Origin: Flagellimonas alvinocaridis
Lineage (GTDB): Bacteria; Bacteroidota; Bacteroidia; Flavobacteriales; Flavobacteriaceae
DNA: 64,000 bases
Direction of reading: 5' to 3'
Assembly (NCBI RefSeq): GCF_004916895.1
Contig: NZ_SNTZ01000001.1
Coordinates: 652,263-716,262 of the forward strand
Shown here piece by piece: positions 3,186 to 19,842 of this stretch. Within the stretch, counting starts at the first letter, position 1; every line of letters starts with the position of its first letter. Both the position numbers and the translations under genes were made by a program. The notes beneath the pieces were generated by a model. The model was not told the origin of the DNA and searched no databases. It saw only the letters and a list, made by a program, of their open reading frames with translations.

Positions 3186-3259
3186 GGTCCTATAGCTCAG
3201 TTGGTTAGAGCACCTGACTCATAATCAGGTGGTCCCTGGTTCGAGCCCAGGTGGGACCA
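3186..3259 (+). tRNA. tRNA with CAU anticodon (Ile2 or Met); integration site
   Basis: A complete 74-nt cloverleaf can be drawn. The acceptor stem is GGTCCTA with TGGGACC (one G-U pair). The D stem is GCTC/GAGC, the anticodon arm CCTGA-CTCATAA-TCAGG has anticodon CAT, the T arm is CCTGG-TTCGAGC-CCAGG, and the discriminator is A. CCA is not encoded. CAU can be elongator Met or lysidine-modified Ile2; sequence alone does not settle this. The last 13 bases are the left boundary of the mobile element, so the 3' end of this working tRNA was restored by the integrated copy or by conservation of the crossover. Confidence 0.93.
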
Positions 3260-3260
3260 C
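3247..3260 (+). repeat. attL: 14-bp direct repeat in tRNA 3' end
   Basis: CCAGGTGGGACCAC covers the last 13 bases of the CAU tRNA plus one base. The identical 14-mer occurs again at 27161-27174 beside the integrase end. The tRNA remains complete on this side. Confidence 0.88.
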
Positions 3261-3262
3261 GG

Positions 3263-3297
3263 AAAACCCTTCTAAACGATTGATTTAGAAGGGTTTT
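3263..3297 (+). terminator. Element-borne terminator hairpin after the tRNA
   Basis: AAAACCCTTCTAAA (3263-3276) and TTTAGAAGGGTTTT (3284-3297) are perfect 14-bp arms around a 7-nt loop, ending in a T run. The hairpin lies just inside the element and would end tRNA transcription. A similar hairpin outside the right end (27178-27212) is probably the original chromosomal one. Confidence 0.75.
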
Positions 3298-3307
3298 TAA
3301 ATTTATA

Positions 3308-3326
3308 GGGGGCATAATAGGGGGCA
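3308..3326 (+). repeat. Paired GGGGGCA motif near attL (candidate integrase arm sites)
   Basis: GGGGGCA occurs at 3308-3314 and 3320-3326, 12 bp apart. The same heptamer pair with the same 12-bp spacing and orientation is found at the other end of the element (27030-27048). Arm-type integrase sites are the simplest reading; this is inference. Confidence 0.5.
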
Positions 3327-3440
3327 AAATTTTATCGTTACCATAGTCGTCCTTAACTTTTCCTAGTTCAAAGGACTTCCCAGATTAAAAATGAATTATC
3401 AATGCCATTGATTTAAAAATCATTGTTGTTATTTGCCCTA

Positions 3441-3641
3441 TTAACGTTTATTTCTCACGTAGTTTACCGTATAAGAGAATAATGTTACTAATAGCGATAT
3501 TGTAGATAATCCAGATAGAATAACCCCAAACCAAAATAACGTCTTAAGGCAATAGTACTCGGCAGTACCTAAAGTCAGTAAGGACACAACCAAAGCCCAG
3601 AGATTTTGATTTAAGTTGATTTTAAATTGGTCGGCACTCAT
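3441..3641 (-). CDS. Small membrane protein downstream of OLD nuclease
   Basis: 66-residue protein that I do not recognise. A short polar amino end (MSADQFKINLNQN) is followed by two hydrophobic stretches at about residues 14-30 and 36-58, then a basic tail (NYVRNKR), so it is predicted to be a two-helix membrane hairpin. It starts 15 bp after the stop of the OLD-family gene on the same strand and is likely in the same transcript. A membrane partner could serve as an effector or anchor of a two-gene defence unit, but nothing in the sequence proves that. Hydrophobic pattern and spacing are the only support that it is expressed. Confidence 0.55.
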   Translation of the reverse strand: MSADQFKINLNQNLWALVVSLLTLGTAEYYCLKTLFWFGVILSGLSTISLLVTLFSYTVNYVRNKR

Positions 3642-3656
3642 TTCTTGATACGGTAA

Positions 3657-5783
3657 TTAAGATATTAGCTTATCAAATATTTCTTTCCATTTATCCTCCA
3701 TCTCCTTAGGGATGTTTTCCATTAACTTATCAAAGCGGTTTAGGTACATTCTTGCTACGTCAACTTTCCATCCATCCTCCAACTGTACCCCGTTCTTTTT
3801 CGCCCATGCCTCTATCTGGTCTACAATGGGCTCATCTTTGGTATAGAAATCTTCAAAATACTCGTCTGGTCTATATTGCCTGTCAATAATCTCGATTATT
3901 GCGTCAGCAGGCAGCAAGTCCTCAATTTCATATTCTTTGTCTCCTAAATAGTCTGCAACCTCTAAAACTCTTTCTTTCTCATCTAGATACCTGCCAGTTA
4001 AAAGTGATTTTTTGTAGCCCTTTCCAACATTATCGGAGTCCAGTAGCACATAAGGTAATTGGTCATCTCTAGAGGTAACAAGTTTAGTAACTGGCCCCAT
4101 CCCTTTGACACCTCCAGTAGGTATAAAGACAATTTCCTTTGAGTAGTTCAAAAATCCTTTACCGATAAGGTATCTTTTAATCACGCTCAAATATATCTGA
4201 TCACTTACTCCCTCAACCAATACAGGTAAACACCCTAATAATAGAGTATCTGATACGGTCAGTCCTAAAGCTGCATGAACTGGGAAAATAGACTTTTCAG
4301 CATCGACCTCATTGTACCTAAGGTTAGAGGATACCCTAGTCCTGCCATTATCGGAGTCTATATAGACGGCCTTAACGTTTGCCAGATTATCCATATCAAC
4401 CAAAAACGGAGAATGAGAAGTATAAATAAGTTGATTGTCCTCTGACAGTTTACGGAAAAATTTAGCTAAATCGTACTGGGCAATGGGATGCAATGACAGC
4501 CCAGGCTCGTCTAACAGGAGTATTGTATTTGTATGTCCCTCTTTTGTTTCGACAAGAAAAACAAGAAAGAAACTAAAAAACCATTGTAGCCCTCTACTGC
4601 GACCCTCTAGTTCAATTGGCTCAGGGCGTAAAGAGTCAGATACATTTATTCTAAAATGCCTACCGTCTGCTTGAAAGTCAAAAATATAATCCCCTTGCAG
4701 CCACCACTTTCTAAATCTTTGAGTTAGTTGAGTTGCGGCTGACCTTAACAAGATACCTCTTTCCCTTTTCTTGTCTGCCCAGTCCCTTATTTCTTCCTCC
4801 GACAACTCCTTTTCCTCAGTACTTACTACAGCCCCTTGATGATTGAGCTTTTTTATGATGGTCTTACTCTCGTTACCTAGCTCATAAATCTCTTTTGGGG
4901 ACAAGTTCACGTATTTAAACAAAACATCTAATGTTCTGGCTTTTGCCCTTGCGGACTCTGACAAGTCCTCTCTACCAAAATCCTCTATTACCCTAGGCAA
5001 ATAAATTTCACTATCCAGATTACCGTAATCAGAGTAATAAACAAATTTTGGTATTTCCTCCAAAATCATTTTATCTACCTCCTCGGTACTTTGGACTGGC
5101 TTACCATCAAAAGCATCTTTCATTTTAATAAGATGCTTTAATAGGTTTCTGGAAAAGAAATTTGGTAAATTCTGTTTCTTACCAAAATTCTTCTCTGCAA
5201 AGGCTATTGCTTCATCCTTAAGAGATACTACTAAATCTTTTGAAAATGTATCGGATGGAAACTTATTTACCTGTTCACTTAAAAAAGAGGTTATTTTATC
5301 TTGGAGCTCCTTAGGTTCTTTAGTGAAAACCTCATTACCTGTTAAGTCGGTTTGGAACTTTGAATATAAGTCCTGCAATACGCTTACGGGATATTCGTCT
5401 ATCTGGGAATATGGAAAAGATATGACGTGCTCCCCCTTATATTTTCTTTCTACAAGTACACACTTTACTTGCTCTTGGTCGCATTTCAATCTTTTGGCTA
5501 TTTCTTCGCTAAAGCTATCCTCTAAAATAAAGTCAGCAGAGATAAAAATATCCTCCTTATGATTGCCTGCTTTGTACTCACTATATAAATGCCTTGGAAA
5601 GTCATCTAAGGGGACAATAGGCTCTTTATTTGCAGGATTAAGCTTCCATAGGGCTATTAACAGATTTGTTTTACCTGCCTCATTTGTCCCTACAAGACAA
5701 GAATTATCAGCTGTTTCTATCCAATCACTTTCCTCAATAGACCTGAAATTGTATACTTTAAATCTGCTCAGTTTTGTAGCCAT
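3657..5783 (-). CDS. OLD-family ATPase/TOPRIM nuclease
   Basis: 708-residue protein with an ABC-like ATPase followed by a TOPRIM nuclease domain, the architecture of OLD (overcoming lysogenization defect) nucleases used in antiphage defence. Walker A is GTNEAGKT at residues 32-39, a signature-like region lies near 393-402 (EGRSRGLQWF), Walker B is ILLLDEP near 421-427, and an H-loop-like TSHSPF is at 455-460. The TOPRIM part shows the acidic VLVEGVSD motif (E524) and LLDSDN (D582, D584), so the nuclease site looks intact. No UvrD-like GajB partner is next to it. The downstream neighbour is a 66-residue membrane protein instead. Family assignment is firm; a defence role is inferred from family and island setting. 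Confidence 0.87.
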   Translation of the reverse strand: MATKLSRFKVYNFRSIEESDWIETADNSCLVGTNEAGKTNLLIALWKLNPANKEPIVPLDDFPRHLYSEYKAGNHKEDIFISADFILEDSFSEEIAKRLKCDQEQVKCVLVERKYKGEHVISFPYSQIDEYPVSVLQDLYSKFQTDLTGNEVFTKEPKELQDKITSFLSEQVNKFPSDTFSKDLVVSLKDEAIAFAEKNFGKKQNLPNFFSRNLLKHLIKMKDAFDGKPVQSTEEVDKMILEEIPKFVYYSDYGNLDSEIYLPRVIEDFGREDLSESARAKARTLDVLFKYVNLSPKEIYELGNESKTIIKKLNHQGAVVSTEEKELSEEEIRDWADKKRERGILLRSAATQLTQRFRKWWLQGDYIFDFQADGRHFRINVSDSLRPEPIELEGRSRGLQWFFSFFLVFLVETKEGHTNTILLLDEPGLSLHPIAQYDLAKFFRKLSEDNQLIYTSHSPFLVDMDNLANVKAVYIDSDNGRTRVSSNLRYNEVDAEKSIFPVHAALGLTVSDTLLLGCLPVLVEGVSDQIYLSVIKRYLIGKGFLNYSKEIVFIPTGGVKGMGPVTKLVTSRDDQLPYVLLDSDNVGKGYKKSLLTGRYLDEKERVLEVADYLGDKEYEIEDLLPADAIIEIIDRQYRPDEYFEDFYTKDEPIVDQIEAWAKKNGVQLEDGWKVDVARMYLNRFDKLMENIPKEMEDKWKEIFDKLIS

Positions 5784-6090
5784 AAAACAAAAGGATAATT
5801 TTCCTACAAGAAACGATAATCCTCGAAAATTACCTAATCTTTAATATGATAACTGCTTGTTTTGTTAGTAGTTATCATTTTCATTTTAAGTATCCTTTTC
5901 ATAAAGTTGATTTTAGGGACACCCCGCTTTTTTTCAGTGTTTTGTTCCCATTCTCTCTTTGAACCAAATAAGGGTTTCCTCACTAAAATCAATGAAAATA
6001 GGTCTTTTACAATGAACTAACTCTTTGGTGCTATTGGGTTTTTAAATTGGTTTTTGTAACGGAACCACATTGAGTTTAACATTCTTCCAT
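5784..6090. other. Intergenic region with a 9-bp inverted repeat
   Basis: No gene is visible in these 307 bp. ATGATAACT (5846-5854) and AGTTATCAT (5870-5878) form perfect 9-bp arms around 15 nt, about 65 bp upstream of the OLD gene start. This could be an operator of that gene. Alternatively, with the following T-rich bases, it could be a weak terminator. The rest is AT-rich without recognisable structure. Confidence 0.4.
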
Positions 6091-7797
6091 TCATTGCCCC
6101 GCTTGAACAAAGGCTCTACTATCTACCATAAATTCCCTTGAACGTTGCAGCAGTATATCCGCTTTGATTTCGTCTATTTCCACATCCCTATTTTGATAGC
6201 GCATTTTAGAGCTTGCATTTCTCAATAATTGGAACAGGTCCTTGTCAAGTTCTGTATGCATAGGGAAATAGTCATGGATTTTGGGATAAAGATGACCGCA
6301 CAACTTTATCAAGTGGGATAGTGAATGGTTTCTGGGCCTGTATTTCAAAACACCATAGATCAACCCAAGGCAAGCCTGTTCAACTGCCAAGGAGACAAAA
6401 TGAACGGCCATCAATGAATCCCCCATTGGGGATTCGGCCACCACCAAATAGTTTCTAGCCCTTCTGTACCTACTGCTGATCGTCTTCCTTGTCTTTTTGG
6501 TTCCCATTTTAGGTAAATCATCGTTGGTCCTCAAATCCATGGCACCCTCACCTTGAAACAAAAGCTTGCCACTCCTAACGACCTTCTTGTAAAAGGGATT
6601 CCCGTTATTTAGCTTTTTGGAGAATACTTTTGGTGCATCAGAACATATACAGAGGCTGACTTGTTGGAATTTTTGTTGGATGGTATCAACTACTGAATGG
6701 ATTGGATCAATGTTCGTCTTATCTGAAACAATGAACAACCAATAATGGACAGGACAGGTTTGAACATCCAAAGCTCTAAGAAAGTGGACTTTATCTTGTG
6801 TTTGAAGTGTCCTTTTTTGCATAAGATAGATATGTGTGGGATTTAGTTTCTTTTTGATCAACGAAACCGTTTCTTGTAAAACTATGTCAACCGGTTCATC
6901 CATGATGGTTACCTGCTCTTCAATATGGGTTTCAACCTCATTGAAAATTTGGGCAGGTTTATCGTCATCATCCCCGTGAATTCTTTGTCTGCAATCTTCC
7001 AGATGTCTATTGAAGATGGTTTCTACTTGTTCGGCAAAGGATTGGAATTCAGATTGAATCAATTGGACCTGACCTTTGTTGATCTCATATTCATTTCCGT
7101 ACCGTGCGGCACTATATGCATGTTCCAATAGGAGCAACAGTTCATTGTTGTCCATTTCAGCTGTTTTTGGAAACGGACGTAACGTTGGAAAGTAATCTTT
7201 GCAAAAGTTGATATGGCTGATGATGCTATGGGTTACTTTGCTATGGCCGATAAACATCTGTTCCATGAAACGGAATGCAAGTTCAAAGGCTTGGTGCAGG
7301 TTGAAAGCGGCAATGGCATGATCACCTTCCTTTAGCAATATTTCCGCAGTATTTACAAATGCCTTGATTTTTTTCATCTCCAAATCGAAATAACGTTCAG
7401 CTCTTTTAAGGATGTTCCCCATGGCCAGTTCAGGGTAATCCAAAAGGTTCGTCCCCTCTGGGTGCGCATAGACCATTTCCCCAAGGCAGCAATGCTCCAA
7501 GAAGTAGAGCGACCCGCGTAAGATTCCAATCTCGGATTGCTCCTCTGTATAGATTTTGATTCGGAAATCAGGGTGGTCCTTTGCTGTTTTTGTCCCAAAA
7601 CCCAATATTTCATTGGGAATGGGGTTGTTGTTGACATCGGCAAAGAATGTGAGGATATGATAAGGGGATTCTCCCTCCCTTTGTTCCATGGATAGAAATA
7701 TGGCATCAATGGTGATTACGTTCAGGATGTTGTCGATAAGATTGGAGAGTTCCTCCTTCTTATCAAAGTTTTTGGGTATGTTTAAGTAATGTTCCAT
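6091..7797 (-). CDS. Tandem nucleotidyltransferase-like/HEPN protein
   Basis: 568-residue protein built from two similar halves. Each half has an alpha/beta part resembling a degenerate nucleotidyltransferase (about residues 15-120 and 305-400), then a helical HEPN domain (about 145-290 and 440-565). The repeat is visible in HAIAAFNLHQAFELAFRFME versus DSLMAVHFVSLAVEQACLGL, in KDYFPTL versus HDYFPMH, and in EHAYSAARYGNEYEI versus RNASSKMRYQNRDVEI. HEPN proteins are often RNases or RNA-binding partners in toxin and defence systems. A clear catalytic R-x4-6-H is not obvious here, so it may be non-catalytic. It is divergent from the XRE regulator at 7942. The function is not known to me. Confidence 0.65.
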   Translation of the reverse strand: MEHYLNIPKNFDKKEELSNLIDNILNVITIDAIFLSMEQREGESPYHILTFFADVNNNPIPNEILGFGTKTAKDHPDFRIKIYTEEQSEIGILRGSLYFLEHCCLGEMVYAHPEGTNLLDYPELAMGNILKRAERYFDLEMKKIKAFVNTAEILLKEGDHAIAAFNLHQAFELAFRFMEQMFIGHSKVTHSIISHINFCKDYFPTLRPFPKTAEMDNNELLLLLEHAYSAARYGNEYEINKGQVQLIQSEFQSFAEQVETIFNRHLEDCRQRIHGDDDDKPAQIFNEVETHIEEQVTIMDEPVDIVLQETVSLIKKKLNPTHIYLMQKRTLQTQDKVHFLRALDVQTCPVHYWLFIVSDKTNIDPIHSVVDTIQQKFQQVSLCICSDAPKVFSKKLNNGNPFYKKVVRSGKLLFQGEGAMDLRTNDDLPKMGTKKTRKTISSRYRRARNYLVVAESPMGDSLMAVHFVSLAVEQACLGLIYGVLKYRPRNHSLSHLIKLCGHLYPKIHDYFPMHTELDKDLFQLLRNASSKMRYQNRDVEIDEIKADILLQRSREFMVDSRAFVQAGQ

Positions 7798-7929
7798 AGG
7801 TTTGTATTTTAAAGGGTCCGAGAATCACTAGCCATATTAAGGTCGCATTCCCAAGTACCCCACTATAGCCACTTGTATTTTATTGAACCTGTTTTGTATA
7901 TTACAATCGGATTATTGTGGGAAACACCC

Positions 7930-7937
7930 TATATTTG
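7930..7937 (+). promoter_or_regulatory. TAnnTTTG -7 box just before the XRE gene
   Basis: TATATTTG matches the Bacteroidota -7 consensus exactly and ends four bases before the ATG at 7942. No good TTTG is found 19 bp upstream. If used, transcription would start at or next to the ATG. Confidence 0.35.
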
Positions 7938-7941
7938 AGAT

Positions 7942-8340
7942 ATGCAGACAAAGACCAAGAACAACCATATAGGCAGAAAGATTAGTAGGATCAGGGAACT
8001 CCGTGGAATGAAACAGGAGACGTTGGCCGAAGAACTGGGCATTAGCCAGCAGGCCGTTTCCAATATTGAGAATAGCGAGAAAGTAGATGATGCAAAACTG
8101 GAAGAGGTTGCCAAAGCTCTTGGTGTGACCAAGGAAGGAATCCAACAATTCAACGAAGAGTCTATCTTCAATTATTTCAATAGTTTTCATGATAGTAGTG
8201 CCTTTAATACACACTGCACGTTTAATCCATTGGATAAATTAATGGATGCTCATGAAGAGAACAAGAAACTTTATGAGCGTCTTGTCCAAGCTGAAAAAGA
8301 TAAGGTGGCTTATCTGGAGCAGCTTCTGAAGAAGAAATAA
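7942..8340 (+). CDS. XRE-family transcriptional regulator
   Basis: 132-residue DNA-binding protein. A Cro/CI helix-turn-helix spans about residues 10-66 (KISRIRELRGMKQETLAEEL, then SQQAVSNIENSE). A low-complexity linker follows, and a charged helical tail (LDKLMDAHEENKKLYERLVQ to the end) is likely a dimerising coiled coil. It is the only plus-strand gene between the minus-strand HEPN gene and the minus-strand PIN gene, so it may control the HEPN gene divergently or be a regulator of the element. Its targets are unknown. Confidence 0.85.
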   Translation: MQTKTKNNHIGRKISRIRELRGMKQETLAEELGISQQAVSNIENSEKVDDAKLEEVAKALGVTKEGIQQFNEESIFNYFNSFHDSSAFNTHCTFNPLDKLMDAHEENKKLYERLVQAEKDKVAYLEQLLKKK

Positions 8341-8407
8341 ATTATTTTTATTTCTTTATTCTCCTTAGGCTGTAGATACCAGAAAAGATTATGCTGAAGA
8401 GGCCATT

Positions 8408-9010
8408 CTACTTTTTTAAATAAGCAATGTACTTATTTAATAGGGTCTCACTCATTGTTATAACTTTGACATTTTTGACCCAAAAATCCTTGTCATCAGT
8501 AACAAGAAAATAGTCTTTCTTTTTACAAAGATTATAATAGTAATAATCATTAAAATCTAGGCTTGTAGGCGGATTGCTTAAAACATGTTTGAATTTAAAT
8601 GACGAACCAAATTCGTCATTTATCAAATCAATTGAGACATTATAACTTTTTAAGTCATCACATATCATGTTGTAGGCAACACTATAGTCTAGTGAAGGCC
8701 TATATACATTTTTGTAATAAGATGAATCTGGGCTAAAGTCTGGCTGAGCCTTTCTTATCTTATTTATATGCTTTTGGTAATGGACTTCTCTAATTATCCG
8801 GTTGACGACTTCTGAAACCACAAGTGCAGGTACAACAATGCGAACTTTTGTGTTTTTGATTATTTTATCAAAAAGTTCTAGATAAGCCTTTTCTTTAAAG
8901 GATGGATTATTCTTAGGCGATAAAACCTTTAGCCAAATATTCGCATCTAAAAAATAATTCTCCTTGTCTTTAACTTGATGGGTATTTGCCTTAAAATAGG
9001 AATAAGACAT
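8408..9010 (-). CDS. PIN-domain protein (predicted ribonuclease)
   Basis: 200-residue protein with a PIN-like fold. Acidic residues occur in the right order: D22 in YFLDANIW, E67 in VVSEVVN, D152/D155 in LDFNDYYYY, and D172/D173 in LVTDDKDFW near the end. PIN domains are Mg-dependent RNases, often VapC-type toxins, but this one is longer than the usual ~130 residues and has no VapB-like antitoxin beside it. It is the last gene of a three-gene unit with a STAS-like protein (2-bp gap) and a GHKL ATPase. That pairing suggests regulation by partner switching rather than by a classical antitoxin. The family is fairly clear; the role is inferred. Confidence 0.72.
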   Translation of the reverse strand: MSYSYFKANTHQVKDKENYFLDANIWLKVLSPKNNPSFKEKAYLELFDKIIKNTKVRIVVPALVVSEVVNRIIREVHYQKHINKIRKAQPDFSPDSSYYKNVYRPSLDYSVAYNMICDDLKSYNVSIDLINDEFGSSFKFKHVLSNPPTSLDFNDYYYYNLCKKKDYFLVTDDKDFWVKNVKVITMSETLLNKYIAYLKK

Positions 9011-9012
9011 AT

Positions 9013-9336
9013 TTACATTGACAGAAGTGCGTTGTCAACAAGGCTATCGTAATCTTCGCCTAGTAGAGCGTTTTCAATTACGTCATCTATTTTGTGGGCG
9101 AATATTTCTTTTCCTTCCGGATATTCAAATTGAAGTTCTTGAATTGTTTTACTATTCATAGCCGCATAACGACCTATACTTTCATTTAAAAACAGTGTTG
9201 AGATAAGTTTAACACCCACAAACGAAATAGTAATTTCAGAAGGTTTTTTTGCTTTAATAACCTCAAATAGAGCAACACCATCCTCAAGATTAGTGGCTAA
9301 ATTTGATTTTACAATATCTAAAACATTGATAATCAT
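9013..9336 (-). CDS. STAS-like protein (DUF4325 type)
   Basis: 107-residue protein resembling the STAS-like DUF4325 family. It has an early beta strand, a GVALFEVIKAKKPSEITISF segment, FVGVKLISTLFLNESIGRYA as the central strand-helix, and an acidic helical tail. STAS proteins act as anti-anti-sigma-type switches bound by GHKL kinases. The upstream neighbour here is exactly such a GHKL ATPase, and the PIN nuclease follows two bases after this gene. No conserved phosphorylatable serine can be assigned with certainty; residues S42 and T47 near the core are candidates only. Confidence 0.65.
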   Translation of the reverse strand: MIINVLDIVKSNLATNLEDGVALFEVIKAKKPSEITISFVGVKLISTLFLNESIGRYAAMNSKTIQELQFEYPEGKEIFAHKIDDVIENALLGEDYDSLVDNALLSM

Positions 9337-9386
9337 AGGTTAATAAAATTAACGTTCTCCAAATAAGGATTTGCAAATATACCTCA

Positions 9387-10226
9387 TTAACGCTTGAAAA
9401 ACAAGTTTAATATAGACCCGGCGTAGGGATTTGGAAAACTAAATTTTTTCAATACCGTATTTTCCATGTCTAAACTCCAAAAAGTATCTCCAGTTATGAT
9501 TTGGAAATTACCTTTAGTTCTGTTAAAGTATGCATTTAAGTCAAATAAACCTAATCCGCCTGGGGCTCCTTGTCTAGTTGTATTTCTTTTTTCCAAGGCC
9601 CACTTTATCGCATCATAGCTATTATCAATTTCCCCTTTTGTTTTATTTTCAATGGCAGGGAGAAAGCCAACTCCCAAATCTACCATTGAAAAAGCTAAAA
9701 TTCCTTGTTTTGGGAAGTACTGCCCACAAACATAAAAAGGCTCTATTGATTTTGAATGCTCCTGTATATTACAATATACTTCTACTAGCGAGGACATTAT
9801 GTTATCCTTTTCTTCAATCTTGAGACTAGGCATCCCACGATGGGCCAATAGCTCATTTTCGACATAATCAATGAAACCTCCTTTATCGTTAAGGTCAAAG
9901 CTTCTAAATGAAACTGTTGATTCTTGCAGATCATTGTTAGTTCCTTCTGACCTTAGAAATCCATTTCTAAACAAAACATTGAAATGTTCCTCTAAAAACT
10001 TTAAGTCTGTTGAAAAATTTAGGTTGTTCTCCTTCTTTAATTTTGCTAAAATACTACCAAACAGAGCACTTAAATTTGCATCAAACCAATCTAAGTGGTA
10101 AAAGTCAATATAGATGGTTTCATTATAGTATTGCGATGCTTCTTTATGAAAGTCAAATAGCTTCTTAATACCTGAAAAATTGGTGCTAACATTGTGCTTA
10201 ATACTTAATACTATTTTATCGTCCAT
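9387..10226 (-). CDS. GHKL-type ATPase with N-terminal STAS-like region
   Basis: 279-residue protein. The first ~110 residues contain a STAS/MlaB-like pattern (TIYIDFYHLDWFDANLSALFG). Residues 140-255 hold a GHKL (HATPase_c) ATP-binding fold: N-box SSLVEVYCNIQEH (145-157), G1 box MVDLGVGF (181-188) and G2 box GGLGLF (223-228). Such ATPases act as anti-sigma kinases or conformational switches. It begins the trio with the STAS-like and PIN genes and lies 50 bp after hsdR on the same strand. There is no histidine-kinase dimerisation domain, sensor or receiver, so it is not a normal two-component kinase. Confidence 0.7.
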   Translation of the reverse strand: MDDKIVLSIKHNVSTNFSGIKKLFDFHKEASQYYNETIYIDFYHLDWFDANLSALFGSILAKLKKENNLNFSTDLKFLEEHFNVLFRNGFLRSEGTNNDLQESTVSFRSFDLNDKGGFIDYVENELLAHRGMPSLKIEEKDNIMSSLVEVYCNIQEHSKSIEPFYVCGQYFPKQGILAFSMVDLGVGFLPAIENKTKGEIDNSYDAIKWALEKRNTTRQGAPGGLGLFDLNAYFNRTKGNFQIITGDTFWSLDMENTVLKKFSFPNPYAGSILNLFFKR

Positions 10227-10276
10227 TATAATTCCTCCAAGGATAATCCTATTTAGTAATTCTTGTATCTAATCGT

Positions 10277-13129
10277 CTAATTATCCACTCCATTAATAAA
10301 GGTCTTGATAAAGTCCATAATTTTTGTAGTTACCCGATTGCTGATGGATTCACGCTGCAATACACTCGGTTGTATCTTCAATGTTTCTATCACTTCGTCC
10401 TCAGTGGCCATTCTACCTGTAAACAGATAGTCATTAATGATATCTTCCACTTTATCTTTTTGGAGGGCCTCAGTGTTGCTTAAATCCTCCAACGCCCTCT
10501 TGGTTTCTTCGGCCCAATATGATTTAAAAACATTCTCTACATCCTCGGCCTCGTTTATTTTTGGCAAATTATTTTGGATAAATTTTTCAATCAATTCCCG
10601 TTTACTTCTTAGTTCGGCTTCTCCTGCAATCAGATCAATAATCTGTTTTTTCTGTTTGGCCTGGTCCTGTGGTTTTGCTTCCTTTAATTTGGCCAATAGC
10701 CTCATGATATAGGCTACGTTTATTTCATCCCTATGGATGAGTTCCAATTCAAAATCGATTTCATTTAAGATAGAAACGGATTCTTTAAGATTGTCAGTTT
10801 TGATTTTATCGTACAGGTCCAAATATTTACTAGAATAGTCTGCAAATTCCTGCTCCTGCATATATGTGTCGTCAAAAGTAAATTCCGTGAACGTAGAAAG
10901 TATATTTTTAAGGCGCATGATTTCCCTGAAGGCCTTTGCAAAAGCAAGTTCATCCTCTTCTGTCTCTAAATCGTTGACACTGTCAACCGTGGGTGTGATT
11001 GCCATTAACTGTTTATAGGCCTTATTGAACTTTTTTACTTGTTCTTCATAGGGATCTATGGTAATAGTTTCTTTTGCATTCTTATCCGAGAATAGGGCAA
11101 TGGCATCATCCGTGTTTTGTTTAAGGTTACGGAAGGCCAAGATATTTCCCTGGGATTTCTTTTCGTTCAATATTCTATTGGTACGTGAATAGGCCTGAAT
11201 CAAACCATGATAGTTAAGGTTTTTATCTATATAAAGCGTATTCAGGGACTTGCTATCAAAACCAGTCAAAAACATATTTACAACCAAAAGAATATCTATC
11301 TGCTTGTTTTTTACCCGTTTGGAAATATCTTTCTTGTAATTCAAAAAGGTGTTTCCATCTTTTGCCGAGTGTTTTGTGCCATATTGTTGGTTATAATCTT
11401 CAATACATTCATCCAATTTATCTTTATGTGGAATGTTACCATAATGAGCCGATGGTTCGGCGGCCATCATCATATCCGGGAAATCTTCTTCGGGAATTTC
11501 CCCGTTGGCCAGTTTATCCTCTTGATTTGGGGCATAGGAAAATATAGTGGCAATATTCAAACTGTGGTTGCCAGTTCTCTTTTTCGACCTGAAAAGGTCA
11601 TAATACTTTATCAAAATGTCAACGCTGCTGACACATAAGATAGCGGTAAAGGTTCTATTGTGAGTCTTACGGTTATGGTTCGCAATAATATAATCAACAA
11701 TCGATTCTATGTAATCATCACTTTCATAAACCTCGGTTTTATCTATGTCCTCCACTTTAATGTCTTCTATCCCTATTTTAGATTTGAAAACGTTATAATA
11801 CTCTATGGAGAATTTCAAAACATTCTCGTCCCTTATGGCATCTGTAATTACGTATTGGTGCAAACAATCATCGAACAGATTTGCAGTGGTCTGCTTTACA
11901 CTTTTCTTACTTATGGCGTTTTTTACAAATATGGGAGTACCGGTAAAACCAAATAGCTGATGATTGGTAAAGAAATTTACAATACGCCTATGAGTGTCGC
12001 CAAACTGAGAACGATGGCATTCATCAAATATGAATACAATTTTTTCATCCTTTAGCTCCTCTATCTGCCTTCTAAACTTTGCTTTAGAAATAGCGCTGTT
12101 GAGTTTTTGGATGGTTGTTACAATTAATGGTCTGTTTGGGTCTAAAAATTGATTGACCAACATTTTGGTGTTTTCCGTCCCATCAATACTGTCTTTATCA
12201 AAAGCACGGAATTCTCGGACGGTTTGGTCATCTAGGTCCTGCCTGTCAACTACAAAAACAACTTTTTTAATCTTAGGATTGTTGGTGATAATCTGGCTTG
12301 CCTTAAAAGAGGTAAGTGTTTTTCCTGATCCCGTGGTATGCCAGATGTAGCCATTCTTTGAACTATTCTTTACCCTGTCGATGATTGCCTCTACCGCATG
12401 ATATTGATAGGGCCGTAATACCATTAATATCTTATCGCTTTCATGTAACACGATATATTTGGCAATCATCTTTGCAATATGGCACGGTTCTAGAAAAATA
12501 CCCGCAAACTTATCCAGTTGGGTAATTTTGGTGTTGTTCTCTTTGCTCCAATAACTGGTGAACTTGAAGCTCTGCTTTTGATTATTGGCGTAATATTTGG
12601 TATCTACTCCATTGCTAATGACAAAAATCTGCACATAATTGAACAGGGCGTTGTTGGACAGAAAGGACTCCTTTTGATAGCGTTGAATTTGATTGAAAGC
12701 CTCCTTAAGCTCAATGCCTCTGCGTTTTAGCTCTATCTGTACCAATGGAAAGCCATTTACTAGCAATGTGACATCGTAGCGATTTTCCCGTTTCCCATTT
12801 ATGGTAATTTGATTAGTGACCTGAAATTGGTTTTGACACCAAAAGTCTTGATTGAGGAATTCGATATACTTTTTATCGCCATTGTCCTTTATCAATACAA
12901 ATTTGTCCCGAAGCGTTTTAGCCTTATCAAAAATACTTCCCTTGGTTAGATGCATTAATATCCTATCGAATTCGCTGTCGGTAAATGTTGTTTTGTTATG
13001 TTTTTCCAGTTGTATCTTTAGATTTCGTAATAAGTCATCCTCGGTTTTTATCACAACCGATTTGTGGCCCAATCCGACCAGCTGGTTGACTAAATTAGTT
13101 TCTAATACTTGCTCTGGTTGTGTGGTCAT
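10277..13129 (-). CDS. hsdR: Type I restriction enzyme, R subunit (HsdR)
   Basis: 950-residue motor and nuclease subunit of a type I system, which cuts unmodified DNA after ATP-driven translocation. The amino-terminal PD-(D/E)xK site is visible as D119 with E133-x-K135 (QIELK). Walker A TTGSGKT is near 265-271, and the DEAD-like box FIFDECHRS is near 367-374, followed by FTGTPIF and later helicase motifs (VNMFLTGFDSKSLNTLYIDK, YSRTNR). A long helical tail binds the HsdM/S complex. All catalytic motifs look intact and the length is usual. The ATG directly follows the stop of the 171-residue gene. Confidence 0.94.
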   Translation of the reverse strand: MTTQPEQVLETNLVNQLVGLGHKSVVIKTEDDLLRNLKIQLEKHNKTTFTDSEFDRILMHLTKGSIFDKAKTLRDKFVLIKDNGDKKYIEFLNQDFWCQNQFQVTNQITINGKRENRYDVTLLVNGFPLVQIELKRRGIELKEAFNQIQRYQKESFLSNNALFNYVQIFVISNGVDTKYYANNQKQSFKFTSYWSKENNTKITQLDKFAGIFLEPCHIAKMIAKYIVLHESDKILMVLRPYQYHAVEAIIDRVKNSSKNGYIWHTTGSGKTLTSFKASQIITNNPKIKKVVFVVDRQDLDDQTVREFRAFDKDSIDGTENTKMLVNQFLDPNRPLIVTTIQKLNSAISKAKFRRQIEELKDEKIVFIFDECHRSQFGDTHRRIVNFFTNHQLFGFTGTPIFVKNAISKKSVKQTTANLFDDCLHQYVITDAIRDENVLKFSIEYYNVFKSKIGIEDIKVEDIDKTEVYESDDYIESIVDYIIANHNRKTHNRTFTAILCVSSVDILIKYYDLFRSKKRTGNHSLNIATIFSYAPNQEDKLANGEIPEEDFPDMMMAAEPSAHYGNIPHKDKLDECIEDYNQQYGTKHSAKDGNTFLNYKKDISKRVKNKQIDILLVVNMFLTGFDSKSLNTLYIDKNLNYHGLIQAYSRTNRILNEKKSQGNILAFRNLKQNTDDAIALFSDKNAKETITIDPYEEQVKKFNKAYKQLMAITPTVDSVNDLETEEDELAFAKAFREIMRLKNILSTFTEFTFDDTYMQEQEFADYSSKYLDLYDKIKTDNLKESVSILNEIDFELELIHRDEINVAYIMRLLAKLKEAKPQDQAKQKKQIIDLIAGEAELRSKRELIEKFIQNNLPKINEAEDVENVFKSYWAEETKRALEDLSNTEALQKDKVEDIINDYLFTGRMATEDEVIETLKIQPSVLQRESISNRVTTKIMDFIKTFINGVDN

Positions 13130-13645
13130 CTAGGTATTTCTTTCAAATAGCAAAAGTTCTAGTTCCGCAAGACTTGTACAATTGTGTTTTTTTAAACTCT
13201 TCTTTGCGCTTTCAATTATGCTCCGATAGTCAAGGTCGTCGGTCATTTTTGTCCAAGGAATTACTGTTAAATTCAGCTTTCTTTGAATGATGCTATCCAC
13301 TGGGAAATGAGGCGGTTCGGGTATCCAACCAGCACACCAATGATATTTTAAATAAAGGTTCAACAATTTTTGACTGACTCCAAAAATCAGTTTGCCATTT
13401 TTTAAAATTTCTCTATTGACCTCTGTATGATGACTAATTCTTTTGATGTTCCCAATGTGCTCCTCTTCGCCAACAGGGTTTTGATATATGGTATTAATCA
13501 TGTTGTCCAAATATTCTTTAAGCATTTTTCTAAAATAAACTTTTTCTATTTCCAGAATACTTGGGCGGTAAAGATTGGCACGCTGAAAAGCACCCATGAC
13601 GCTTAGCATCCAGAACTCATTAATTAGAAAAACATCTTTGCTCAT
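13130..13645 (-). CDS. Unknown 171-residue protein inside the hsd operon
   Basis: I cannot assign a function. The protein is soluble, mixed alpha/beta and rich in aromatic residues, with a conserved-looking LLNLYLKYHWCAGWIPEPPH segment near residues 90-110 and PVDSIIQRKL after it. It sits exactly between hsdS (2-bp gap) and hsdR (adjacent stop and start), so it is translated as part of the restriction operon. Proteins of this look occur near restriction and prophage loci, but I recall no defined role. Possibilities include an accessory or control subunit of the type I complex, or an unrelated passenger. Confidence 0.6.
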   Translation of the reverse strand: MSKDVFLINEFWMLSVMGAFQRANLYRPSILEIEKVYFRKMLKEYLDNMINTIYQNPVGEEEHIGNIKRISHHTEVNREILKNGKLIFGVSQKLLNLYLKYHWCAGWIPEPPHFPVDSIIQRKLNLTVIPWTKMTDDLDYRSIIESAKKSLKKHNCTSLAELELLLFERNT

Positions 13646-13647
13646 CT

Positions 13648-14784
13648 TTATACAAACATTTGCTGCAACAACCCTTTTTTATAGACGGTAGTTTTTTCTA
13701 TTTGGTAATCTACTTGTATAATTCTTTCATCTAAGGCAGAAAGAAAATTGGTGATCTTCGATTGTTCTTGGATACAGGGGATTTTTACAGAAATATTTTC
13801 AATAGTTTTTTTTGATAAACTTGGAACTCCAGATGCTTCATTATATCTATACCAATTAATTGTATTGAAAATGTAGTAGATAAATTTGGGTAACACCTTT
13901 CGAAACGAATGGGTAAAGAACAATGTATCAACAGTCCAGAATTTGCCTGTCAAAAAAATTGGTTTATCGATGGTTCCTTTTCTGCCAATCCCAACACTTT
14001 CTCCATCATAAATAAATTCATTCACCTTAGTCATTATTCCGCCTGAGCCAAATACTGGAATTGCACCATCACCAAGATGCTTGTAATCTCTACCACTGCC
14101 TATTTTCAAAACTTCTCCTAGGTGTTTTGATTGCCATTCCGGATAATCCTTCCCGTCATCATCTTTAAATCTTATTTCCTGACTAAAAAACTGCTGCATC
14201 ACCCCCTTTTTATATTGTTCCACCAATGCCTTCTTTTTGATGAGTTGAGTTATTTTGTCATCTACTGCGGATAGAAAGGAGGCGATTTTTTGTTGCTCTG
14301 GAAGTTTTGGGCAGGCAAATTTTAAGGTTTTGATATCTTTTGCCGTGAAGCCTTGGATAGATGTACCTTGACTTAATCTTCTAAACCGATTTGATCTTGC
14401 TTTAAAATAATAAGCAATAAAATAAGAATTTTCGGTACAATCAAGATTTGTAAAATCTTGACTGGTGCACAAATCTTCATCAGCTACTGCGAATTTGCCT
14501 ATTCCCACTCTTGAAACAATTAAAACACTTCCTTTGGGAATAATTTTTGTGGCGGATTCCTTAATAGCTTTCTCAGAGATGAATCGAGTTTTTTTTATTA
14601 AATGAATTGATTCTTCAAGAATATCTGAACTAGAAATCCAAGGTACTTCTCCATTCCAGAAATCCTTATTATTAGTAATTGGAGTTCCTCCACCGAGAAA
14701 TACTCCTAAAGAATTTATTTTTCTTTGTTCCCAATTATTTTGAAACTCAGGAAATCTTAATTTAGGTTTTAGCAGTTTTCCCAT
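13648..14784 (-). CDS. hsdS: Type I restriction-modification specificity subunit (HsdS)
   Basis: DNA-recognition subunit that sets the methylation and cleavage site. The 378-residue protein has two target-recognition domains (about residues 15-165 and 205-355), each followed by a long helical spacer. The spacers are marked by repeated phrases: LPEQQKIASFLSAVDDKITQ then LVEQYKKGVMQQFF, and QEQSKITNFLSALDERIIQV then VYKKGLLQQMF. The start is taken at the ATG at 14784, one base after the hsdM stop, rather than the upstream TTG inside hsdM. The two domains differ, as expected for a bipartite asymmetric site, which cannot be predicted from sequence alone. Confidence 0.93.
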   Translation of the reverse strand: MGKLLKPKLRFPEFQNNWEQRKINSLGVFLGGGTPITNNKDFWNGEVPWISSSDILEESIHLIKKTRFISEKAIKESATKIIPKGSVLIVSRVGIGKFAVADEDLCTSQDFTNLDCTENSYFIAYYFKARSNRFRRLSQGTSIQGFTAKDIKTLKFACPKLPEQQKIASFLSAVDDKITQLIKKKALVEQYKKGVMQQFFSQEIRFKDDDGKDYPEWQSKHLGEVLKIGSGRDYKHLGDGAIPVFGSGGIMTKVNEFIYDGESVGIGRKGTIDKPIFLTGKFWTVDTLFFTHSFRKVLPKFIYYIFNTINWYRYNEASGVPSLSKKTIENISVKIPCIQEQSKITNFLSALDERIIQVDYQIEKTTVYKKGLLQQMFV

Positions 14785-14785
14785 A

Positions 14786-16387
14786 TTAAAAAGGTGTTTC
14801 AATATTCAACTCATTACAAAAATCGGCTATCTCAGTATCGGTCTGTTGTATATAAGTGTCCAAGAGCTGTAGCTCCTTTGCCACGGCGGTAATGTCAATG
14901 GGGTCTTCCACCTCAAAGGTGTCCACATAACGAGGTATGTTCAAATTGTAATCATTATTGGCAATCTCTTGTAATGTAGCTCTATAACTATATTTTTCTA
15001 TGACCTCTCGGTTGGTATATGTATCGACAATATTATCGATATGTGCCGGTAAAAGTTTATTGTCCTTGCCTTGTTTTTCAAATTCATTACTGGCATCGAT
15101 AAATAATACGTCCTCATTTTCTTCCCTACATTTTTTAATTACCAAAATGCAAGTAGGGATACTTGTACCAAAAAATATATTTGCCGGTAGCCCAATAACC
15201 GCATCGATGTAATTTCTGTCCTCAATCAAGTACCTGCGTATATGGGCTTCAGCGCCCCCCCTAAACAGAACACCATGAGGTAGAACCGTTGCCATGATGC
15301 CGTTCTCATCCAGATGATGAATCATGTGTTGCACAAAGGCAAAGTCAGCTTTGCTTTTGGGGGCTAGCCTTCCGTACTGGCTGAAGCGATCGTCGGTATT
15401 AAAGATGTTTTTGGCACTCCATTTGGCCGAAAAAGGTGGGTTGGCAACAATGGCTTCGGCACTTAACTCCATATCCATATGCTGCGGCTCTTCCAAAGTA
15501 TCTTCCTGTTTAATATCGAACTTTGAATAATGCACATCGTGCAAAATCATGTTCATACGTGCTAGATTATAGGTTGTACGGTTTAATTCCTGTCCGTAAA
15601 AAAAACCCACATCATCTACTTCCCGTGCAACCCGCAACAGTAAGGAACCGCTACCACAAGTGGGGTCGTAAACCGACTTTATACGCTTTTTTCTAGTGGT
15701 GACAATGCGGGCCAAAATAGTGGATACTTCTTGAGGGGTATAAAATTCCCCAGCCTTTTTACCCGCCCTTGAAGCGAATTCCCCAATAAGATATTCATAG
15801 GCATCCCCCAACACATCACTTTCCGTATCTTCCAGATGAAAATCGATTGCATCCAACTTGGTGAGAATCTTCGCAATAACCTCGTTCTTGGCTTTTAATG
15901 AGTTTCCCAGTTTGGAAGATGTTAGGTCCAAATCTTCAAAAAGACTTATAAAATCATCTTCCGATTCCGTTCCCATGGTACTCTGTTCAATATTGATTAG
16001 AATACGTTCTAGGTCTTCAATAATGAAATATTGTGTGGCCTCATCATTGTCATTCGTTTCTACATTGGTAAGGTTGCTTCCTTTTTTGGCAATAGAAGTG
16101 AATAATTCTGACGGTTTAAGAAAGTAGCCCAATTCTTTGACACACGATTTCTGGACGGCTTCAAGGTATTTCTTCCCTTCTTCCGTCTCTTCATCGATTT
16201 CGACAAAATTATAGGGATCATTTTCCAGAATTCGGTTGGCATAAATATGTAGTTTTTCAGACAGGTATTTAAAAAAGATGAACCCCAAGATGTAGTTTCT
16301 ATAGTCATCTGCATCCATTTTGCCCCTTAGAAGGTTGGCTATGGCCCATAATTGTTTTTGAAGCTGTTTTTTCTGTTCTTCCGACAT
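14786..16387 (-). CDS. hsdM: Type I DNA methyltransferase subunit (HsdM)
   Basis: 533-residue N6-adenine methyltransferase subunit. An amino-terminal helical HsdM_N domain (about residues 5-150) precedes the SAM-binding domain. Motif I is DPTCGSGSLLLRVA, the catalytic motif IV is NPPF in AIVANPPFSAKW, and the GEFYTPQEVSTIL segment is typical of type I and related enzymes. It stops one base before the hsdS start and begins 8 bp after the abiEii stop, so the toxin-antitoxin genes and the restriction system appear co-transcribed. Confidence 0.95.
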   Translation of the reverse strand: MSEEQKKQLQKQLWAIANLLRGKMDADDYRNYILGFIFFKYLSEKLHIYANRILENDPYNFVEIDEETEEGKKYLEAVQKSCVKELGYFLKPSELFTSIAKKGSNLTNVETNDNDEATQYFIIEDLERILINIEQSTMGTESEDDFISLFEDLDLTSSKLGNSLKAKNEVIAKILTKLDAIDFHLEDTESDVLGDAYEYLIGEFASRAGKKAGEFYTPQEVSTILARIVTTRKKRIKSVYDPTCGSGSLLLRVAREVDDVGFFYGQELNRTTYNLARMNMILHDVHYSKFDIKQEDTLEEPQHMDMELSAEAIVANPPFSAKWSAKNIFNTDDRFSQYGRLAPKSKADFAFVQHMIHHLDENGIMATVLPHGVLFRGGAEAHIRRYLIEDRNYIDAVIGLPANIFFGTSIPTCILVIKKCREENEDVLFIDASNEFEKQGKDNKLLPAHIDNIVDTYTNREVIEKYSYRATLQEIANNDYNLNIPRYVDTFEVEDPIDITAVAKELQLLDTYIQQTDTEIADFCNELNIETPF

Positions 16388-16395
16388 TCGTAGTT

Positions 16396-17187
16396 CTATA
16401 CTTTTGAGATTAGTTGGTCTTTGATGATTTCGTAAGCGTTTCTTTGATCGTATTCAATGCCAGGTCTTAACAGCGCATAGATGTCCCCGCCGAAATCAGA
16501 ATCTTCTACTTTTTCATCCATATTCAACAAGAACTGTTTTTGTGTTGGTGATTGCCCTCTTGAGAAATCCATATAGTGTTTGTATATAAATATTAATTTA
16601 TCTGTGTCAACATCCAGTAGGCTTGTAGCATGGTACAAGTCAAACAGATCCCGTCCTTTTCTACGTTGATACAATGCCCGCAGTTTCGTGGCCAACAACT
16701 CCTCAATAGAAAAGGAATTCATGGCACAATTTCCGGAAAACCATCCGTTCTCCATACTATGTTCCAACTCGGTATAGCCCATGACTGTAAAATGTTCACG
16801 AGTGTTGATTTCAATCTTCAACCGCATGTTGACAACTGGGGGGATTTCAGATTCAAAGCGATAGGTTGCCGTATTCATGTTGACATTCTGCTTAATGTTT
16901 CTTTTGGTTCCCAAAAAGTCAAGCTGCTTTCCAATAGCTTGTAAAATTGGCTTAATTGGGCCGTCTTTTATCTGTACTAAATCAATATCCTCGGAATAAC
17001 GGGCCTGGGGTTTCAAATAGATTTTATGTAAGGCCGTACCACCACGAAACGCTACATGCTCCTTTAAAAAAGGGTCCGAAAACAAAGCTACCAAAGCGCG
17101 TTCTATGACTAAGTCCTGTTCCACTTGTGCATCTGTTGGCCATGGGGCATTTGCTTTCCATTCCGTAATATATCTCCTTGGTATCAT
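16396..17187 (-). CDS. AbiEii-type nucleotidyltransferase toxin
   Basis: 263-residue nucleotidyltransferase of the AbiEii/MenT family, toxins that block translation by modifying tRNA ends. The core motif FRGGTALHKIYL (GG at 49-50, K55) is followed by RYSEDIDLV with the metal-binding D67 and D69. The later ATKLRALYQRRKGRDLFDLY is also family-typical. Its start overlaps the AbiEi stop by four bases (ATGA), the standard arrangement for this toxin-antitoxin pair. The next gene downstream is hsdM, only 8 bp away. Toxicity is inferred from the family. Confidence 0.88.
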   Translation of the reverse strand: MIPRRYITEWKANAPWPTDAQVEQDLVIERALVALFSDPFLKEHVAFRGGTALHKIYLKPQARYSEDIDLVQIKDGPIKPILQAIGKQLDFLGTKRNIKQNVNMNTATYRFESEIPPVVNMRLKIEINTREHFTVMGYTELEHSMENGWFSGNCAMNSFSIEELLATKLRALYQRRKGRDLFDLYHATSLLDVDTDKLIFIYKHYMDFSRGQSPTQKQFLLNMDEKVEDSDFGGDIYALLRPGIEYDQRNAYEIIKDQLISKV

Positions 17188-17975
17188 GAAAAATCCATTT
17201 CAGTATTAATGATCAAGTTCCATTTATCATCCGTAAAACCACTTTTGTTCTTGTGGGATAATGATAATGGAGCCGTATTGGTTTTATTTGCCCTCAAAAA
17301 AGTGGACAGATTATCTACAAGTTTAGTTTCTGACAACTGCTCCAATAGATAGCCCAATCGCTGTATGGTGGGTAGGGATGATTCCTTGGCAATAGCTAAA
17401 ATTCTTGACGACTTAAAATTCTCGCTTAGTTCTTCTAGAACCGGAATCACTCTGTTTAACCCTCCTATTTGCTTATGATAATGCACTAAATCAACAGCAG
17501 TCAATTCAGGGGTTGAGACTAAGACGTATCCGGCATCGGTTTTCTTTTGCTCCAACCAATCACTCTTCCAAGAACCTTTGGTAAAAAATTCTAGATGTTG
17601 ATTTTTGGCTTTTATGTCCCTTAGGGCGGGTTTTTTAATTATAATCTGCGATTGCATCGGCTGTTGGTGTCCTGCGCCATGAAGTGCAGCAGCGGAGTAT
17701 AAACCAAGATAGTATTCCCTATTTAGGAAATTCATCATATCATCCAAATAATAAGTAGTGGGCAATATTCCCTGATGGGAATATTGAGGAGGGACGATTA
17801 CATAAAATTCTTTACGAATCTGGGCAAGTTCGTTCTCCTTTTTTAAACGATGTAGTTTTTGGGCAATCGCCTTTTCGTTGGGACCAAAGCGTTCCCTAAG
17901 TTCTTGCAGACTAACAGCATACCTGCCTTGAGCTTGGATTTCATATAAATAGTCTGAAATATCGTGGCCTATCAC
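17184..17975 (-). CDS. AbiEi-type antitoxin/transcriptional repressor
   Basis: 263-residue antitoxin partner of AbiEii. It has an amino-terminal winged-helix part (about residues 1-65, with SLQELRERFGPNEKAIAQKL) and the AbiEi carboxyl domain, which includes YYLGLYSAAALHGAGHQQPM near residue 90. AbiEi proteins neutralise the toxin and repress their own operon by binding inverted repeats. A fitting inverted repeat around the predicted promoter is present at 17984-18024. The start is GTG at 17975. It is the first gene of a nine-gene minus-strand run ending with the PIN gene, so it may also control the restriction genes. Confidence 0.83.
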   Translation of the reverse strand: MIGHDISDYLYEIQAQGRYAVSLQELRERFGPNEKAIAQKLHRLKKENELAQIRKEFYVIVPPQYSHQGILPTTYYLDDMMNFLNREYYLGLYSAAALHGAGHQQPMQSQIIIKKPALRDIKAKNQHLEFFTKGSWKSDWLEQKKTDAGYVLVSTPELTAVDLVHYHKQIGGLNRVIPVLEELSENFKSSRILAIAKESSLPTIQRLGYLLEQLSETKLVDNLSTFLRANKTNTAPLSLSHKNKSGFTDDKWNLIINTEMDFS

Positions 17976-17983
17976 CTCAAATC

Positions 17984-18024
17984 TGTTTGCGTAAATTTAT
18001 GATAAATGTAGTTAATTGCAAACA
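17984..18024 (-). promoter_or_regulatory. Promoter and candidate operator of abiEi-hsd operon
   Basis: On the minus strand TTTG is followed by 19 bp and TAAATTTA, close to TTTG-N19-TAnnTTTG. The inverted repeat TGTTTGC (17984-17990) / GCAAACA (18018-18024) brackets this promoter: one arm contains the -33 TTTG and the other lies directly after the -7 box. The repeat starts nine bases upstream of the GTG start of abiEi. Autorepression by AbiEi is the expected use. Confidence 0.5.
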
Positions 18025-18108
18025 AATATATGCTAAGTCTATTCAGAATTAGAGTTTCAGCTTAGATAAAACCCAAATCTTACCTCCAACTTCAGCGCAT
18101 GGATCCTG

Positions 18109-18156
18109 TCCTATTTTTGTAGCGTTCGGGAAGAAAAGCGTTTATCAAAAATAGGA
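18109..18156. repeat. 11-bp inverted repeat between mobilization and abiE operons
   Basis: TCCTATTTTTG (18109-18119) and CAAAAATAGGA (18146-18156) are perfect 11-bp arms separated by 26 nt. A near copy TGTCCTACTTTTTG follows at 18165-18178 and overlaps the end of the next gene. It lies downstream of the 18169-18624 gene and upstream of abiEi. A terminator is possible, and so is a nick region. Confidence 0.5.
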
Positions 18157-18168
18157 TAGGGCGCTGTC

Positions 18169-18624: not shown

Positions 18625-18634
18625 GATGTTCTGT

Positions 18635-19504: not shown

Positions 19505-19797
19505 TTCTTGAAGTTTAAAAGGTGTTGTCGTATTTCTTTGGCCAATTGGGCCGTTTCCTCTGCCAACTTGGGGTTCCGCTTACGGAACATGTTGGTAATC
19601 AGTCTGAAGTTCCGTTGGTATTTGACCAAAAGCTTATAGGCCTCTATCTGTTCGTCCGTCATCCGCTCCACGATACGGTCTTCGAAGGCCGCACGTCGGC
19701 AGTACTCACTGATGGAAAGTCCGCTCTTCCGGGCCTTGACCCTCAGCAGTTTTTTCTCGTAGACCGAGCACCGGAACTGGACGAACTCTTTCTTCAT
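19501..19797 (-). CDS. mobC: MobC-like relaxosome accessory protein
   Basis: 98-residue basic protein with a ribbon-helix-helix start (EFVQFRCSVYEKKLLRVKAR then SGLSISEYCRRAAF) and a helical tail. This is the pattern of plasmid mobilization MobC/MbpA-type oriT-binding proteins. The ATG at 19797 is preferred over an upstream TTG because the domain begins there. It is coupled to the relaxase by a four-base overlap and lies downstream of the primase gene. Confidence 0.8.
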   Translation of the reverse strand: MKKEFVQFRCSVYEKKLLRVKARKSGLSISEYCRRAAFEDRIVERMTDEQIEAYKLLVKYQRNFRLITNMFRKRNPKLAEETAQLAKEIRQHLLNFKK

Positions 19798-19842
19798 TTT
19801 CACATCATCTTTTGCGACCTTCGGGAGCAAAAGCAAGATTTG

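Follow-up and report, generated by a model that had tools for sequence, protein, structure and literature searches.

A probable VapKSC kinase-antitoxin-toxin operon directly behind a type I restriction gene in Flagellimonas alvinocaridis

Three adjacent genes of Flagellimonas alvinocaridis (Flavobacteriaceae) raise the question of whether a GHKL ATPase, a STAS-like protein and a PIN-domain nuclease act together as one defence unit, and whether such a unit is new. The genes lie in a 64,000-nucleotide stretch of contig NZ_SNTZ01000001.1 (assembly GCF_004916895.1, positions 652,263 to 716,262 of the forward strand), here called the window, the features of which are collected in the Table. The original prediction, made from the sequence, knew of no described system with this exact trio; however, the VapKSC system described by Chambers et al. 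(EMBO J, June 2026; PMC13373217) is the same trio with the same composition. With a probability of about 0.9 the window genes are a vapKSC operon encoding a kinase VapK, a STAS antitoxin VapS and a PIN toxin VapC. The type of system is thus already in print; what is new is this member, its restriction-linked setting on an integrated element, and a number of natural variants. Within the open-access library searched, supplements excluded, the name VapKSC occurs in that paper alone, and searches by the domain names of the trio turned up no paper describing such a unit; an earlier mention elsewhere is possible.

Table. Features of the window, and restriction genes directly upstream of vapK at related loci
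Feature	Coordinates	Strand	Description
tRNA-Met	3186-3260		14-bp copy of its 3' end at 27161-27174
Element at tRNA-Met	3247..27174	.	23.9 kb, carries vapKSC; 14-bp direct repeats 3247-3260 and 27161-27174
Xre-type HTH gene	7942-8340		best family HTH_3 (50.2 bits); minor Sigma70_r4 match (27.5 bits over 27 best-matching residues)
vapC	8408..9010	(-)	200 aa; PIN-domain nuclease toxin; D22, E67, D152/D155, D173/D175; Pfam PIN_12/PIN
vapS	9013..9336	(-)	107 aa; STAS-like antitoxin (DUF4325, PF14213), predicted C-terminal helix, putative phosphosite T47
vapK	9387..10226	(-)	279 aa; GHKL kinase, probably serine/threonine, with putative N-terminal STAS-like region; AF2 model, conserved N/G1/G2 boxes
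hsdR	10277..13129	(-)	directly upstream of vapK (50 bp), co-directional; Pfam/TIGR00348
hsdS	13648-14802	(-)	type I R-M, same system as hsdR; Pfam
hsdM	14786-16387	(-)	type I R-M, same system as hsdR; Pfam
Tyrosine recombinase	25739-26977		adjoins the 27161-27174 repeat
Upstream restriction gene, type I			L079, L080, L093, L143
Upstream restriction gene, type III (Mod/Res-like)			L082, L101
Upstream restriction gene, McrBC (McrC)			L083
Upstream restriction gene, MmeI-like			L084

The three genes follow one another on the minus strand in the order kinase, STAS, PIN, and the adjacency, sizes and gaps of 50 and 2 bp that had been read from the sequence are as first given. Pfam assigns VapS to DUF4325 (E 1e-5) and VapC to PIN_12 (9.6e-8) and PIN (1.1e-6); the same scan gave nothing below E 0.1 for VapK, and PADLOC and NCBIfam scans of the trio yielded no informative match. 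The N, G1 and G2 boxes of the GHKL domain, predicted to be intact, were located in VapK as E149xxxN153xxxH157, D183xG185 and G224xG226, and are conserved across 81 aligned sequences (E149 and N153 in 81/81, G224 in 79/81 with two gaps, G226 in 75/81). The PIN acids originally proposed require one correction: D22, E67 and D155 stand, but position 172 is variable in an alignment of 71 sequences (mostly D, N or H) and the conserved acids are D173 and D175, near-invariant at 70/71 each; the conserved VapC acids are present in 69-70 of the 71. Positions counted by hand align D22 with Escherichia VapC D28, and T47 of VapS with Escherichia VapS S48. The S48-equivalent position is Ser or Thr in 76 of 77 aligned VapS sequences, the exception being a distant phage-contig locus (L078). 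The W47 position of VapK is W, F or Y in 74 of 76 ungapped sequences, and on the basis of the alignment W47 is the likely counterpart of Escherichia VapK F54 and of CapK W68.

In PMC13373217, vapKSC is made up of a STAS-GHKL kinase (VapK), a STAS protein with a C-terminal helix (VapS) and a PIN protein (VapC), and 289 instances are reported, 36% of them at most 10 kb from another immune gene. Escherichia VapC is toxic and is neutralised by VapS, whose C-terminal tail extends to the active site of VapC and is needed to block it, and the VapS2VapC2 crystal structure is PDB 9Z7O (PMC13373217). Ser or Thr at S48 is reported there to be absolutely conserved in VapS, and the phosphomimetic S48E loses both neutralisation and VapC binding, the binding test having been done once. 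The Escherichia operon confers ~2 logs of protection against one phage, Bas42, and this protection is abolished by VapC D28A, VapS S48A or VapK F54A (PMC13373217). The proposal, made from the window alone, that a GHKL/STAS pair controls a PIN RNase and that stress or infection could release it is the published model for the Escherichia relative, with the experiments done on that relative (PMC13373217).

Under the mechanism proposed for the window trio, VapS, by its STAS fold and C-terminal helix, would keep the VapC nuclease inactive at rest. DNA damage, whether from phage, restriction or stress, would yield single-stranded DNA that activates VapK; active VapK would phosphorylate VapS at T47; phosphorylated VapS would release VapC; and free VapC would cut RNA and stop growth, such that the phage cycle is not completed. 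We infer phosphorylation of VapS by VapK, ssDNA as the VapK signal and RNA as the VapC target, as do the authors of PMC13373217; in that paper, phosphorylation and ssDNA activation are shown for CapK/CapS and not directly for VapK. Support at the window locus consists of homology, conserved residues, gene order and architecture.

The assignment to VapKSC is supported by profile matches to the solved Escherichia proteins. Mixed-family profiles matched the 9Z7O VapS and VapC chains in the PDB at 8.3e-32 and 3.9e-35, respectively. Profiles built from 18 sequences nearer the window, so as to avoid leaning on Escherichia-like members, had the same Escherichia chains as their best PDB matches (9z7o_A VapS, E 1.5e-12; 9z7o_C VapC, E 8e-13). 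With single sequences, phmmer placed 9Z7O VapS first for window VapS (E 0.0012) and found nothing in the PDB for window VapC. This last result counts against the assignment, as does the low identity (about 15-45%) to most of the family beyond the closest clade.

The AF2 model of VapK (pLDDT 91) has a strand/helix N-terminal domain from residue 5 followed by the GHKL domain, with no separate HTH region seen. The best structural neighbours of residues 101-279 are SpoIIAB chains (Z 12.2-12.5), the rows that follow lying at 9.8 and below and the best histidine kinase at Z 9.4. Foldseek also found SpoIIAB (E 3.6e-4), with STAS chains as weak rows only for the whole model (4qtp, E 0.19; 3lkl, E 0.52). 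These comparisons of the model favour a serine/threonine kinase over a histidine kinase or an ATPase of the chaperone type. The VapS model (pLDDT 90) has a long C-terminal helix (residues 78-106), and its tail is short and ends at low confidence, the last 10-residue blocks having pLDDT 64 and 56, as might be expected of a segment that becomes ordered only on its partner. Foldseek of the VapS model gave no significant match, in VIA-align the STAS chains scored Z 4-5.8, level with unrelated folds, and 9Z7O was absent among the best 50 rows of either list. No HTH family in VapS or VapK was matched by Pfam, VapS being a STAS-like fold plus one helix. Identity with CapKS is rejected, there being no HTH in the VapK model and no wHTH in VapS.

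A kinase domain closest to SpoIIAB together with a STAS-like protein would also suit a plain partner-switching pair that controls a sigma factor, the PIN gene being a chance neighbour, and the Xre-type HTH gene does have a minor Sigma70_r4 match. The conservation of the PIN gene argues otherwise. A search of a separate genome collection, started with the GHKL gene alone, gave 77 loci, and in 68 of them the complete trio occurs in the same order and strand (in seven, L099, L103, L120, L121, L137, L150 and L154, one member is fragmentary or split). The trio first proposed from the window is therefore conserved in other genomes and is not due to chance. Furthermore, the VapK, VapS and VapC distances correlate at r 0.81-0.87 (65 loci including the window, species phylogeny uncorrected), and 0 of 2000 permutations reach the observed value. 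The PIN gene thus varies in step with the pair; relatives of VapS and VapC have been solved as one complex (PDB 9Z7O; PMC13373217); and no relative of the HTH gene, which fits HTH_3 best, turned up in the 80 neighbourhoods searched. Sigma-factor partner switching usually also involves a PP2C phosphatase, and no phosphatase was matched among those island genes that were scanned. On the conservation and co-variation of the PIN gene and the 9Z7O complex, a sigma-factor regulator is scarcely credible and is rejected.

The remaining nine of the 77 loci comprise five at a contig edge (L106, L113, L116, L125, L128), two without a VapC trace (L117, L132) and two with a GHKL fragment only (L144, L155); in L116 and L128 the VapC frame runs off the contig end (E 4e-44 and 3e-38). 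The record of L128 is titled Alphaproteobacteria bacterium MAG11, and its name looks wrong, the surrounding phylum draw being Bacteroidota. A draw meant for Pseudomonadota returned Bacteroidota again, many of its matches at the same contig coordinates, and was not counted as independent.

Sampling by phylum and class shows how the trio stands among GHKL relatives generally. Of 296 genomes sampled in the phylum, the GHKL search matched 24 at E 1e-3, the window's own included. The trio is present in 13 others (G076, G146, G202, G248, G268, G017, G149, G212, G284, G117, G228, G283, G259), in the last five or six of which the PIN protein is too diverged for single-sequence search and was recognised by alignment; one genome (G217) is cut by the contig, and in 9 of the 24 no PIN gene of the VapC kind was seen beside the GHKL gene. 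In the class sample (395 genomes) 38 have a GHKL match, and only 7 of these have a VapC match alongside; the 7 strongest VapK matches all adjoin VapC. Some of the weaker matches are GHKL-STAS pairs that lack a PIN gene, and many of the more remote GHKL proteins do not belong to VapKSC, which counts against the assignment. Pairs with no PIN gene of the VapC family in the unit occur at L208, L209, L211, L213-L216, L222, L041 and others, and in many of them the STAS protein bears an 'SSFLNSS'-like motif; two integrase-like genes, identified by eye, lie just upstream of the pair in L208 and L219, and L210 (G509, 5959-9700) has vapKSC and a PIN-less pair in divergent orientation about 700 bp apart.

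The kinase might also be thought to lie outside a two-gene system of PIN toxin and STAS-like antitoxin. Finding VapK in the 77 loci does not speak against this, because the search began from VapK; of the 8 class-sample genomes with a VapC match, however, 7 have VapK adjacent. In favour of two genes is G347, where VapC is followed by a VapS-like gene (L232/L240; L232:1333-2430) from which the phosphosite S/T is absent by eye, and where no VapK was matched in the genome at the threshold used or in the examined part of the 9.8-kb contig. L232 is possibly a kinase-free derivative, and a two-gene system is very improbable as an account of the window trio.

The G347 locus, with neither VapK nor the phosphosite seen, fits the published logic by which the phosphosite serves VapK, this being one case. 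The converse loss is seen in L117 (Mesoflavibacter) and L132 (Tenacibaculum), where no vapC trace was found within 700 bp downstream, VapK is kept, and VapS is 104 aa without the C-terminal tail of its relatives. Loss of vapC together with the tail again fits the published logic, the tail being for VapC; these are one or two cases, as L117 and L132 are alike and may reflect one event. Both kinds of natural variant thus agree with the published mechanism for VapKSC.

The window operon lies within an integrated, probably mobilizable element at tRNA-Met. Its cargo includes NikA-like, relaxase and primase-like genes, AbiEi/AbiEii, the type I system, vapKSC, a HEPN protein and an OLD-like ATPase. 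The HEPN protein (568 aa, 6091-7797) has two HEPN stretches, lies between the OLD-like ATPase and HTH genes, and is a possible further defence gene. An unoccupied site was found in the congener G1086 (L235): the left flank and tRNA (88% over 709 bp) are followed by a match to the right flank of the window (94% over 53 bp), then by about 0.8 kb absent from the window, and then by the right-flank gene onward (90.6% over 2.5 kb). The first 50 bp past the tRNA in G1086 also resemble, less well, the left inner edge of the element; a similar stem-like stretch lies at both element edges, and the exact junction therefore rests on the repeat. A search for window vapK across the 71 genomes sampled in its genus (E 1e-20) was positive in one, as expected for an acquired unit.

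Is the position of vapK directly behind hsdR of functional significance? The two are possibly in one operon: hsdR ends 50 bp before vapK, and no terminator-like site was found in 8000-10600, although with 1.4 expected in shuffles a count of zero says little. In 22 complete loci a gene of 250 aa or more, in the same orientation, lies no further than 150 bp upstream of vapK, and in 8 of these it is a restriction gene (Table). Counting the window together with the five relatives nearest to it (VapK 67-90% identical), five of six copies lie behind restriction genes, of three types, the exception being L081. Of the other 14 of the 22 loci, L097 has a Prok-E2/ThiF protein upstream, and L087, L108, L115, L119, L126, L127 and L138 have RNR, PGI, an LRR protein, a glycosidase, a tRNA synthetase, DUF6088 and Ppx/GppA. 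The one-by-one scan covered these 8 of the 14, with L088, L091, L110, L122, L123 and L141 outside it (L088 and L091 in a pooled scan). A 171-aa ORF at 13130-13645, between hsdS and hsdR, has a best Pfam E of 0.2, not above chance.

In a comparison of 120 of 255 flank genes (68 loci) with 120 of 219 genes taken from 20 regions chosen by hand in 10 genomes, type I R-M families came first among the best 25 flank families listed (Methylase_S 4, N6_Mtase 3, HSDR_N 2) and were absent from the control's best 25, the genomes being unmatched and the numbers small. Overall, 8 of the 68 complete loci have a restriction gene directly upstream, and restriction linkage as a general feature of the vapKSC family finds no support in that count.

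The window could contain a restriction-coupled variant of VapKSC, in which the operon would be part of the restriction transcript, ssDNA at cuts or loss of restriction would be the trigger, and the two would make a two-layer defence. The close spacing of hsdR and vapK, the 8 of 22 loci and the five of six copies in the window clade favour this variant, and coordination of this kind is proposed in PMC13373217 for the related CapKS; against it, most complete loci have no upstream restriction gene, and defence genes cluster anyway. The variant is a tentative reading, somewhat less likely than not. Since the upstream gene of close relatives can be type III or McrC, restriction-coupled activation is plausible without being family-wide. 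The further proposal that vapKSC in the window clade is a built-in second stage of unrelated restriction operons (I, III, McrBC), with VapK activated by enzyme cuts or by ssDNA from their processing, is the boldest reading and on the whole unlikely. If true, failed or heavily worked restriction would lead to growth arrest, and the two-stage unit would be mobile on an integrative element with mobilization genes. A connection of restriction with programmed growth arrest can be put to the test at this locus.

The probable VapKSC described here adds one on an integrative element in a Flavobacteriaceae genome to other mobile settings. The Streptococcus phage Javan172 prophage (L186:3501-5293) has a complete vapKSC beside an integrase and an HTH regulator/HEXXH-type protein, and the PIN gene there, which starts with TTG and encodes 176 aa, is unannotated in the record; Deinococcus gobiensis plasmid P5 (L233:3977-5823) has vapKSC behind an HTH gene; and two IMG/VR contigs classed as viral (L076, L077) have complete vapKSC. 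Scans of viral contigs confirmed nothing with Escherichia-like VapK relatives and, with the prophage VapK, returned only the same Javan172 prophage. The trio also occurs in records whose titles name a spirochaete, Fibrimonas, a planctomycete and an archaeon; since the majority are MAGs, binning errors are possible.

Comparison with known systems places the window trio as follows. VapBC also has a PIN-domain toxin held by an antitoxin; the VapB antitoxin is a DNA-binding protein whose release of the toxin is usually by proteolysis, whereas the window antitoxin is STAS-like (DUF4325) and its release is proposed to be by phosphorylation. SpoIIAB/SpoIIAA and RsbW/RsbV share the kinase fold and the STAS position that is phosphorylated (aligned in PMC13373217, and by eye here), but their output is a sigma factor where that of the window would be a nuclease, and VapK has an extra, putatively STAS-like N-terminal region. 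CapK and CapS, as described in PMC13373217, share the probable STAS-GHKL kinase, the STAS substrate and a link to restriction and immune genes; unlike them, with an N-terminal HTH in CapK and a wHTH DNA-binding domain in CapS, the window proteins show neither and are accompanied by a nuclease gene instead. VapKSC of Escherichia sp. E4736 (PDB 9Z7O) has the same gene order, probable STAS-GHKL kinase, STAS protein with predicted C-terminal helix, PIN protein, phosphosite Ser/Thr and PIN acids, with significant profile matches to both solved proteins. The window copy differs from it in belonging to a Bacteroidota branch, in having Thr47 in place of Ser48 and Trp47 as the probable ssDNA-contact residue in place of Phe54, and in its position directly behind hsdR on an integrated element.
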